The translations under genes were made by a program, and so were the position numbers. A DNA stretch of 64,000 bases from Geothrix sp. PMB-07 (GTDB lineage Bacteria; Acidobacteriota; Holophagae; Holophagales; Holophagaceae): the NCBI RefSeq assembly GCF_030758935.1, contig NZ_CP132333.1:1054992-1118991 (forward strand), written 5' to 3'. The notes beneath the pieces were generated by a model. The model saw only the letters and a list, made by a program, of their open reading frames with translations. It searched no databases and was not told the origin of the DNA. The first letter of the stretch is position 1. Every line of letters begins with the position of its first letter. This document shows, in pieces, positions 16,295 through 24,762 of the stretch.

Positions 16295-18217
16295 TCACTC
16301 TCCCAGGCAGGTGCGGATCTTCTGGGTGAGGTCGCCGGGGTTGTAGGGCTTCTGCAGGAAGTGGATGGTGCCGTAGCGCTGCAGGTTGCCCGCCACGTCG
16401 GAGCTGCTGTAGCCGCTGGAGAGGAGCACGGGGACGGTGGAACCGGGTGCCGGTCCGCCGCGCAGATCCGCCAGCACTTCGTCACCGCTCATGATGGGCA
16501 TGGTCAGATCCAGCACCACAGCGCGAATGCGGTCGGCATGTTCGCGGTAGACCTTGAGGCCATCCCGGCCATTGGTGGCGGTCAGCACCGTGAAGCCGCA
16601 GCGCTCCAGGGTTGAGGAGGCCACACTGCGCACGGCCTCTTCGTCATCCACCACCAGGACCAGGCCCTCGCTCTGGTAGGACTGGGTTGGTCGGTCCTCC
16701 CAGACTTCACGGCCCTCGGTGTGTTTGGATCGCGGGAAGTAGAGGCGCACAGCGGTGCCTTCGTCCGGCCTGCTGGTCACCTGGATGGCGCCGTGGTGGC
16801 CGCGGACGATGCCCAGCACGGCCGCCAGGCCCAGCCCGCGGCCGGTGAACTTCGTGGTGAAGAAAGGATCAAAGATCCGCTCCAGCGTGTCGGGCTCCAT
16901 GCCCGAGCCGGTGTCGGCCACCTCGAGGAAGACCGATTCCCCTTCGGGCGGTGTGCCGGCCAGGCAGGGTGTGAGGGGGCCCGTCACCTGGGTTCCGATG
17001 CTGATGGTGATGGTGCCCGGGCGGTCCTCCAGCGCATCGGAGGCGTTGGTGATGACGTTCATGATCACCTGCCGGATCTGAGTGCCGTCCCCGTCGATGA
17101 GCGGTAGATCGCCTGAGTAGCGGTGCTCCAGCTGGGCCTTCTTGGAGATCACGGTTTCCAGCAGGCCTTCCATTTCATCCACCAGGCGGGGCAGGGACAG
17201 CGGCTCCACCTGGAAGGTGCCGCGACCGGAGTAGGCCAGCAGCTGGTTGGTGAGTTCGGCGGCGCGGGTGGCGGCCACTTCGATCTGATGCAGGCGTCGG
17301 CGGAGAGGGCTGTCGCCGCTGATCTCCATGAGGGCCAGGCCCGCGTGGCCCATGATGCCCATCAGCAGGTTGTTGAAGTCGTGGGCGATGCCGCCGGCCA
17401 TGACGCCGAGGCTCTCCAGCTTCTGCGCCTGCTGAACCTTGGACTCCATGATCTGGCGGTCGATCTCCGCCTGCCTGCGCTCGGTGATGTCCCGCGCGTT
17501 GATGACGATGCCATGCACGCCTGGCACATCCAGCGCATTGTGGGTCACGACTTCCATGAGTCGCGGGCTGCCGTTGCGATGCATGACACGGATTTCGAGG
17601 GTCCGAGAGGCGCCAGGGGTCTGCACCAATTCCCGAAGGACGTCGAGGTAGGTCTCCTGGTCATCGGGGTGGATCAGATCCACCGCCGGGAGCCCGTAGC
17701 GTTCACCGTAGGTATAGCCGAGGATCTTCGCGGCCGCGGGGCTGCTGTAGGACACGCGGCCCGCCTGATCGAGGATCACCACCAGATCCAAGGCGTGCTC
17801 GATGATGGACCGCATGCGGGATTCGCTGGCCTTCAGCTCCTGTTCCATGCGGTGGCGGTAGAGGGCCATCTCGATGGTCGAGTGCAGGGTGCGTTCGTCG
17901 AAGGGCTTGAGCAGGTACCCGTAGGGTGCGCTGTCCTTGGCGCGCTTCAGCGTCACCTCATCAGCGAAGGCAGTGAGGAAGACCACCGGGATGCCCATGG
18001 CCTGCATGTAGCGCGCCGCTTCGATGCCATCCATGCCGGCGCCGAGGGAGATGTCCATGAGCACCAGGCCTGGTTTTTGGCTGGCGGCCAGACTGATGGA
18101 TTCTTCGCCGGTGGAGGCCAGGCCGGCCACGCCGTAGCCCAGGTCCTGAAGATGGAGCTTGAGGTCCATGGCCACGATGGCTTCGTCTTCGACGATCAGG
18201 ATCTGGGGTTGGCTCAT
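16295..18217 (-). CDS. hybrid histidine kinase: REC-PAS-HisKA-HATPase-REC
   Basis: A 640-residue soluble protein. Domains: receiver 1 (residues 5-120; D55 in LVLMDISLG), PAS (about 135-245), HisKA with GGIAHDFNN (H279), HATPase with IRQVIMNVITNASDAL and ADTGSGM, then receiver 2 (518-638; D570 in VVLDLTMP). No membrane segment, so the input is internal or comes through the N-terminal receiver, probably by phosphotransfer from the upstream MASE1 kinase, whose stop overlaps this ATG by 4 bases. With no DNA-binding output it likely passes signal on or acts as a phosphate sink. It is the last gene of the minus-strand signalling array. Confidence 0.92.
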   Translation of the reverse strand: MSQPQILIVEDEAIVAMDLKLHLQDLGYGVAGLASTGEESISLAASQKPGLVLMDISLGAGMDGIEAARYMQAMGIPVVFLTAFADEVTLKRAKDSAPYGYLLKPFDERTLHSTIEMALYRHRMEQELKASESRMRSIIEHALDLVVILDQAGRVSYSSPAAAKILGYTYGERYGLPAVDLIHPDDQETYLDVLRELVQTPGASRTLEIRVMHRNGSPRLMEVVTHNALDVPGVHGIVINARDITERRQAEIDRQIMESKVQQAQKLESLGVMAGGIAHDFNNLLMGIMGHAGLALMEISGDSPLRRRLHQIEVAATRAAELTNQLLAYSGRGTFQVEPLSLPRLVDEMEGLLETVISKKAQLEHRYSGDLPLIDGDGTQIRQVIMNVITNASDALEDRPGTITISIGTQVTGPLTPCLAGTPPEGESVFLEVADTGSGMEPDTLERIFDPFFTTKFTGRGLGLAAVLGIVRGHHGAIQVTSRPDEGTAVRLYFPRSKHTEGREVWEDRPTQSYQSEGLVLVVDDEEAVRSVASSTLERCGFTVLTATNGRDGLKVYREHADRIRAVVLDLTMPIMSGDEVLADLRGGPAPGSTVPVLLSSGYSSSDVAGNLQRYGTIHFLQKPYNPGDLTQKIRTCLGE

Positions 18218-23904: not shown

Positions 23905-24762
23905 CTAGGTCCGCTTCCTGTAGCCCATGGCTTTGCTGAAGTGCAGCAATTCAAAGCCGGTGTTGAAAGCATGAATGCTTTCGCTGTGTCCCACCAGCAG
24001 GTAGGCCTTGGGGTGAAGCTGGCCGTGGAATCCCTTGAGCACTTGGGACTTCACGTTTTCATCAAAGTAGATCAGGACGTTCCGGCAGAAGATGACATCA
24101 AAGGTTCCCAACTGGCGGTAGGAGGGATAGTCCACCAGGTTGAAGTGCTTCAGGCTGGTGAGCCGCTGCACCTCGGGTTTCACCTGGAAGAGGTCCTTGC
24201 CCAGGGGGATGAAGTGCCGCTGCAGCTGCTCCGGTGTGAGGTTGCGCAGGGTGTAGCTGTTGTAGACACCGTCCTGGGCCTGGGCCAGCACCTTCTCGCT
24301 GATGTCGGTCCCGAGGATTTCCACCGTGAACCCGCGGAGAACCGTGTCTTTCAGATCTTGGCAGATCATGGCCAGGGTGTAGGGCTCTTCGCCGCTGGAA
24401 CAGGCCGCGGACCAGATGCGCAGTCGGGTCTGGCCCCGCTCCCGGGCCTGCTTGGCGGCATCGGGCAGAACGATGTTCTGGAAGGCCTCGATTTGGGGCG
24501 GGTTGCGCCAGAAGCTGGTTTCGTTGGTGGTGATCTCCACGAAGAGCCGCTTCAGTTCCACTGGTCCCTGGCTGCCCTGGAGGAGGGACAGGTAGTCCGC
24601 ATAGCTTCGGAGCTTCAGTTCCGCGATGCGCTTGCTCAGCCGGTTCTCCAGGAAGTACTGCTTGGATTCGCTGAAGAAGATGCCGGACTTGGCATAGATG
24701 AAGTCCCGGAGGCTCCGGAACTCGGCGATCGTCATCTGTTGCTTAGCCTGGAGTGGATCCAT
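23905..24762 (-). CDS. cheR: chemotaxis protein-glutamate O-methyltransferase
   Basis: A 285-residue CheR: N-terminal helical domain (IAEFRSLRDFIYAKSGIFF), RLFVEITTNETSFWRNP, the SAM-binding IWSAACSSGEEPYTLAM, ILGTDISEKVLAQA, FDVIFCRNVLIYF and GHSESI near the end. It methylates receptor glutamates using S-adenosylmethionine. The ATG at 24762 has AAGGA 8 bases upstream; an in-frame TTG at 24792 is less likely. With the HDOD and cheB genes it forms the core of the signalling array. Confidence 0.95.
   Translation of the reverse strand: MDPLQAKQQMTIAEFRSLRDFIYAKSGIFFSESKQYFLENRLSKRIAELKLRSYADYLSLLQGSQGPVELKRLFVEITTNETSFWRNPPQIEAFQNIVLPDAAKQARERGQTRLRIWSAACSSGEEPYTLAMICQDLKDTVLRGFTVEILGTDISEKVLAQAQDGVYNSYTLRNLTPEQLQRHFIPLGKDLFQVKPEVQRLTSLKHFNLVDYPSYRQLGTFDVIFCRNVLIYFDENVKSQVLKGFHGQLHPKAYLLVGHSESIHAFNTGFELLHFSKAMGYRKRT

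Follow-up and report, generated by a model that had tools for sequence, protein, structure and literature searches.

In Escherichia coli and Salmonella, the receptor methyltransferase CheR and the methylesterase CheB are encoded with the rest of the chemotaxis system, whose excitation arm is of the CheZ type, and no HDOD or FliK-like genes are known to accompany them. These che genes are under the control of sigma-28, with CheR and CheB being made together with the late flagellar genes (PMC2577667, in the sections used here). The same sections describe the group-alpha che clusters of Geobacter, which have been reported in one family only. These clusters contain cheR and cheB but no mcp genes, and they encode an HD-domain protein that stands alone; for G. 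sulfurreducens a putative sigma-28 site is given as well. There, cheA and cheW lie in the same cluster, and the sections mention no FliK-like gene. A locus of Geothrix sp. PMB-07 can be compared with both systems. It lies in a stretch of 64,000 nucleotides (the window), part of a genome made up of a single contig of 4,242,863 bases, and in the list of open reading frames of the window it appears as a seven-gene array on the minus strand at 16295-24762, with promoter-like boxes in front:

24781..24807, minus strand: candidate sigma-28 (FliA)-like promoter, TCAAG-N14-GCCGATCC, its last base 18 bases ahead of the cheR ATG
23905..24762, minus strand: CheR, receptor methyltransferase by family assignment, 285 amino acids (aa), PF01739 E=7.8e-56
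23039..23887, minus strand: HDOD1, 282 aa, PF08668
22156..23019, minus strand: HDOD2, 287 aa, PF08668, with the H/HD/H/HH/D residues complete
21049..22146, minus strand: CheB, methylesterase with receiver, 365 aa, NF001965 451 bits (cut-off 293)
20174..21049, minus strand: FliK-C-like protein, 291 aa, with a predicted OB-like N-domain (about 17-92) and a predicted T3S4/FliK-C-like domain (about 116-271)
18214..20169, minus strand: MASE1-PAS-HisKA_2 kinase, 651 aa from GTG 20169 or 688 aa from TTG 20280; optional, outside the core
16295..18217, minus strand: REC-PAS-HisKA-HATPase-REC hybrid kinase by Pfam, 640 aa; optional neighbour

The first five genes of this locus probably make up the adaptation arm of the core flagellar chemotaxis system in the family Holophagaceae, encoded apart from the rest of that system. 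In the mechanism proposed, cheR, HDOD1, HDOD2, cheB, and the FliK-like gene would make up a single operon that sigma-28 (FliA) RNA polymerase probably transcribes along with late flagellar genes. The proposed excitation arm (PilZ, CheY-like, CheZ-like, triple-CheW, CheA, and CheW proteins) is encoded elsewhere, in this genome about 2 Mb away. The CheA of that arm, here called the partner CheA, would phosphorylate both its own CheY, which acts on the motor, and, through the receiver, the CheB of the locus. CheR would then methylate, and phosphorylated CheB demethylate, dispersed receptors of a single class that lack the CheR-tethering pentapeptide.

Like the Geobacter clusters, the Geothrix locus has cheR and cheB but no mcp genes, carries a candidate sigma-28 site, is recorded from one family only, and has products comparable to the Geobacter protein as HD-domain proteins only. 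Unlike in Geobacter, cheA and cheW are encoded elsewhere, so the locus falls outside the group-alpha definition, in which a single cluster holds cheA, cheW, cheR, cheB, and an HD gene. With E. coli and Salmonella it would share sigma-28 control of cheR and cheB and a CheZ-type excitation arm. Effects of HDOD proteins on motility or on flagellar genes are documented for a number of bacteria, and Cj0248, GsmR, SadB, and PSPTO_4229, which contain this domain, all affect swimming; as far as the cited sections extend, none of them is placed between cheR and cheB, and the HDOD domain of SadB is described as non-catalytic, in contrast to Geothrix HDOD2 with its H/HD/D set (PMC11004494, PMC11813219, PMC6543031). 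The molecular role of HDOD proteins is described as unestablished in the relevant parts of two of these papers (PMC6543031, PMC11004494). In Pseudomonas aeruginosa, a second-messenger protein, MapZ, controls CheR1 (PMC6370697, in part); there is a likeness in that the partner cluster of Geothrix encodes a PilZ protein, and a difference in that MapZ is itself a PilZ and not an HDOD protein. In searches of the open-access literature (subscription journals being outside the scope), no description of this locus was found among the papers listed, nor any paper combining HDOD with CheR and CheB, or HDOD with FliK; the combination of HDOD with CheB brought up PMC11813219, used here for what it says on HDOD, and an unrelated paper.

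Gene order of the core and the kinases

The array was originally predicted as seven genes on one strand, separated by gaps of at most 19 bases and with several overlaps. Strand, coordinates, and gap limit agree with the open reading frames, the spacing from cheR downstream being 17, 19, 9, -1, +4, and -4 bases, where the +4 assumes a GTG start of the MASE1 kinase at 20169 (the earliest in-frame start is TTG 20280); the overlaps number just two, namely cheB/FliK-like and kinase/hybrid. Pfam likewise agrees with the predicted domains, assigning CheR, two HDOD, receiver-CheB, MASE1-PAS-HisKA_2-HATPase, and REC-PAS-HisKA-HATPase-REC. CheR is a receptor methyltransferase by family assignment, exceeding the cut-offs of 27 with 189.1 bits for PF01739 and 59 bits for CheR_N, and CheB has both a receiver and a CheB_methylest domain above the curated cut-off. 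The Ser/His/Asp motifs of CheB, STGGP, QHMP, and TGMG.DG, are retained across 41 sequences.

For comparison, 40 loci from 40 other Holophagaceae genomes, mostly on long contigs, were retrieved from the 56 other genomes holding the locus. They were picked by CheB and FliK-like matches, so that these two genes were selected for and CheR, HDOD1, and HDOD2 were not. The order CheR-HDOD1-HDOD2-CheB-FliK-C-like was found on one strand in all 40 loci, with contig ends cutting CheR in one (L091) and the FliK-like gene in another (L094). The kinase pair was present in 16 of the 40 loci and missing from 22; in the remaining two, the contig ended within this region.

The original prediction went further than gene order, taking the seven genes as one adaptation/phosphorelay unit in which the kinases feed CheR, CheB, and the HDOD proteins. 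The close spacing and the 4-base kinase overlap in the window speak for this, as does the position of the pair, which follows the FliK-like gene in each of the 16 loci that have it, the hybrid kinase always accompanying the HisKA_2 kinase. Both kinases are, however, missing from the 22 loci mentioned, in 14 of which lpxD (TIGR01853, 358 bits, cut-off 243), the convergent neighbor in many loci, lies within the retrieved stretch. Furthermore, no residue is invariant across 17 sequences in the sensor half of the HisKA_2 kinase (five of the sequences are short and lack this half), as opposed to 67-137 invariant positions in each core protein. On the synteny, a single unit that includes the kinases was rejected, and a phosphorelay of the kind predicted is considered improbable. 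Judged from these sequences, the core is five genes, and the kinase pair is an optional insertion, which would have its own input.

Some variation among the loci was also observed. L072, scored as lacking the kinases, encodes a different hybrid kinase, 33% alike, and in four loci (L064, L065, L066, and L079) a short HisKA_2 kinase without MASE1 is found, with a kinase core about 72% alike. The five-gene locus occurs in two copies in one genome (G080, contigs C4 and C24; L093 and L154), and in a draft genome (G049, contig C308) the CheB frame contains internal stops, through either error or decay. In the window, at 23020-23056, an 18-base near-repeat, ATGAT[T/C]GCGGAGTTCTAG, occurs twice at the end of HDOD1 and encodes MIAEF-stop; similar additional copies in L055, L059, L071, and L075 suggest that small duplications at this end are recurrent. 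A tblastn search of plasmids with HDOD1 returned 42 records, all below 60% identity, and no che genes in the three neighborhoods inspected.

The probable partner CheA, flagella, and receptors

CheA, CheW, and receptors, which in a complete chemotaxis locus stand beside CheR and CheB, are missing from the window, in line with the original prediction: throughout the one-contig genome, all nine CheW-domain matches and all 27 above-cut-off matches to methyl-accepting chemotaxis proteins (MCPs) fall outside it. The genome encodes two CheRs, two CheBs, and two CheAs with an H-kinase_dim domain. The CheW-domain matches define three loci, and CheR and CheB occur in just one of these, a complete cluster (MCP-MCP-CheW-MCP-CheA-CheR-CheD-CheB) that accounts for the second CheR and the second CheB. 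The candidate that the locus CheR and CheB form part of this complete system was rejected, as the latter has its own pair. The partner cluster, about 2 Mb from the locus, encodes PilZ, CheY-like, CheZ-like, triple-CheW, CheA, and CheW proteins, and neither CheR nor CheB. Its gene order was found in 10 of 10 stretches (from this and nine other genomes), with the CheY-like gene matched in nine; in none of the 10 was there a tblastn match to the window CheR, and the window CheB matched over its receiver alone, that is, at the CheY-like gene. The remaining CheW-containing locus (L052, genome 1,956-1,967 kb) encodes a third, divergent CheA without H-kinase_dim, along with CheW, an MCP, a histidine kinase, and a receiver-kinase protein.

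In G071, the single CheR and single CheB both lie in the locus (its FliK-like gene being on a separate contig); in G080, two CheRs and two CheBs all lie within the two locus copies. Each of these two genomes has just one H-kinase_dim CheA, which belongs to the partner type. Six family genomes that are at least 90% complete contain FlhA and exactly one H-kinase_dim CheA (G037, G040, G068, G071, G080, and G082), which is of the partner type in all six; the locus is present in five. These genomes bear on the alternative that the locus CheR and CheB are shared, serving the receptors of both CheA systems without being dedicated to the partner CheA. Sharing would fit the many genomes having both CheAs. 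The other CheA, however, has its own CheR, CheD, and CheB, the CheRs of the locus and the complete cluster being identical at 108 of 266 aligned residues, and the flagellated genomes with one CheA all keep the partner type, five of them with the locus; a shared unit thus appears unlikely.

The survey of the FliK-like protein and CheB, and likewise that of FlhA, extended over 93 genomes in the class, of which 77 belong to the family Holophagaceae; co-occurrence was tabulated by hand, with 50 family genomes at least 90% complete. Among the 77, locus and FlhA were both present in 54, the locus alone in three, FlhA alone in one, and neither in 19; for the partner CheA the corresponding numbers were 51, six, one, and 19. 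Among the 50 more complete genomes, both comparisons gave 35 with both, none with the locus alone, one with FlhA or CheA alone, and 14 with neither, the locus, FlhA, and the partner CheA being all present in 35 and all absent in 14. Five flagellated genomes from another family of the class had no match to the FliK-like protein; the module therefore belongs to Holophagaceae and not to flagella as such.

The 28 MCP matches of the genome (27 above the cut-off) are scattered, with none in the window, confirming that receptors are encoded elsewhere. Twenty-three were clustered by their signalling tips, the five without the tip pattern being left out, which gave a class of 15, a class of four, and four singles at a cut of 0.65 (cuts of 0.55 and 0.60 were also applied, and at 0.60 the large class numbered 12, with three split off). 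None of the class of 15 has the pentapeptide. Both receptors with an xWxxF tail sit in the class of four and are encoded in the complete cluster. The class of 15 may accordingly be read as the receptors of the partner CheA. In Geobacter, CheRs that lie apart from pentapeptide receptors are believed to act without tethering (PMC2577667, in the part used).

Promoter-like boxes upstream of cheR

Between acpS and cheR, 26 of 28 same-genus sequences carry the boxes T[AC]AAG-N14-GCCGATCC exactly, over a spacer that has diverged. Conservation, averaged by column, was 0.96 for the -35 box, 0.52 for the spacer, and 0.99 for the -10 box, the last value being partly by construction, as the alignment rows were anchored on the -10 box. 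The exact form occurs once in 352,375 bases of the organism's own genome. The E. coli sigma-28 consensus is printed as TAAAGTTT-n11-GCCGATAA in the part of PMC2859248 consulted, and TCAAG-N14-GCCGATCC agrees with it at 4/5 and 6/8 positions. A FliA/WhiG-family sigma factor (TIGR02479, 260 bits, cut-off 190) is encoded beside FlhF/FlhG/FlhA. The boxes are likely to be a FliA promoter, as a candidate recognized by sequence. In a reversed-motif control for a looser form of the boxes, T[ACT]AA-N14..16-GCCGAT, no match was found in the 352,375 bases.

Several observations weigh against FliA control or the adaptation-arm reading as a whole. With respect to the boxes, the window site scores 9/12 against the E. 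coli consensus, a score reached by 1.25% of 800 random 150-base stretches, and about ten other sites in the genome score at least 10, two of these before bacteriohemerythrin genes. The looser form occurs at four places in the 352,375 bases, again with two before bacteriohemerythrin genes and none preceding flagellar genes or receptors. A pattern search of the retrieved stretches for a flagellin gene, as a positive control, found none, and boxes of this form are present in three of 12 other-genus upstream regions and missing in nine. With respect to pairing, the CheY-like and CheZ-like proteins score under the curated cut-offs. No match to CheR or CheB was found in G068 (96% complete, in 330 contigs), which does carry FlhA and the partner CheA; either this draft has a gap or the genome is flagellated and has no adaptation enzymes. 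The locus is found without FlhA in G034, G050, and G075, and without the partner CheA in six of the 77 family genomes, all of these genomes being less than 90% complete. Finally, the genomes are related, so that neither the counts nor the Fisher values calculated from them are independent evidence; the 14 genomes that lack locus, FlhA, and partner CheA fall in three genera.

Boxes of the same kind as those before cheR were also noted at two adjacent bacteriohemerythrin genes (L147, 6468-6875 and 6975-7382; genome 906-907 kb), each of which follows TCAA-N15-GCCGATGA.

The HDOD pair and the FliK-C-like protein

The metal site of HD domains comprises H, HD, and a last D, and HD-GYP phosphodiesterases carry a GYP motif after the HH pair. 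The two HDOD proteins score 187.3 and 179.6 bits for PF08668 (cut-off 22.9). In HDOD2, H111, H142-D143, H182, H206-H207, and D223 are invariant in 41 of 41 sequences, completing the metal-site set; in HDOD1, H111, H141-D142, H182, and H206-H207 are invariant in 41 sequences and an invariant Asn replaces the last Asp, leaving the set incomplete. An identity as HD-GYP phosphodiesterases was rejected, since the GYP motif is absent from both sequences, which read DHHDPRPDD in HDOD2 and FHHDPIHAP in HDOD1. The solved structures matched include that of Cj0248 (1vqr); the nearest relatives differ, with several of the residues listed above replaced in 3m1t and more of them kept in 3hc1. Given the invariant set and the variation among these relatives, a functional site in HDOD2 is possible. 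In the adaptation-arm reading, the HDOD proteins would tune CheR or CheB, perhaps in response to a nucleotide signal. MapZ, with a different fold, does likewise for CheR1 (PMC6370697).

The FliK-C-like assignment, part of the original prediction, is weak for the window protein taken alone, its match to Flg_hook (PF02120; E=0.02, 15.2 bits) lying below the cut-off of 29.8, and gains from other comparisons. Flg_hook was matched at the C-terminus in nine of 10 orthologues scanned, all below the cut-off (best E=2.4e-5, 24.5 bits), and a single BLASTP comparison with the genome's own FliK gave E=4e-4. The orthologues range from 289 to 913 aa (starts unchecked), with conserved ends and a variable middle, as in FliK and PscP. 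In a predicted model of modest quality (mean predicted local distance difference test score, pLDDT, 61.8), residues 116-271 best match the PscP switch (SS) domain, which is the top match with a Foldseek probability of 1.00 and E=0.011, and which gave a Z of 6.5, below the tool's Z 8 warning level, and a root mean square deviation of 3.2 over 85/94 residues; unrelated OB-type folds match the N-terminal part with similar Z. A profile comparison with four FliK C-termini gave E=0.0033 but a probability of just 4%, its six controls giving E=0.037 to 0.57 (two of them CheR, 0.038 and 0.097), and a search of PDB sequences with the FliK-like alignment found no match up to E=1. A distant T3S4/FliK-C relation is likely. 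The protein differs from FliK and PscP in its sub-cut-off Flg_hook match and its OB-like N-domain, and a separate FliK, above the Flg_hook cut-off, is encoded beside FlgD and FlgE. The gene as the sole FliK of the flagellum was therefore rejected. The protein may instead link the adaptation arm to the flagellar export apparatus at the export gate.

A more elaborate proposal holds that it is a second type III export-switch protein coupling flagellum completion to receptor adaptation. Produced late, and by translational coupling with CheB, it would inform the HDOD pair, CheR, and CheB of the state of export, which would restrict receptor adaptation to cells whose flagellum is finished; HDOD2 would be an active nucleotide phosphohydrolase. 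This proposal is viewed as a long shot. Alternatively, the operon could mainly regulate flagellar assembly or motility, with the HDOD and FliK-like proteins in the lead and CheR and CheB modifying non-receptors. The effects of HDOD proteins elsewhere (PMC11004494, PMC11813219, PMC6543031, in part), the FliK-C-like fold, and the promoter boxes are compatible with this, but CheR and CheB retain their family motifs, and in G071 and G080 no other CheR or CheB is available to the partner CheA; such a role is judged very unlikely.

If the locus is indeed the adaptation arm, then throughout a family the main flagellar chemotaxis system would have its adaptation enzymes encoded away from the kinase, in a fixed group with a pair of HDOD proteins and one FliK-C-like protein that are retained and lost along with flagella. 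The annotation would be corrected accordingly, CheR and CheB without CheA at this place not being orphans. HDOD proteins would gain a specific, testable candidate target in CheR/CheB, and one would have to ask what an export-switch-like domain is doing in an operon for chemotaxis.

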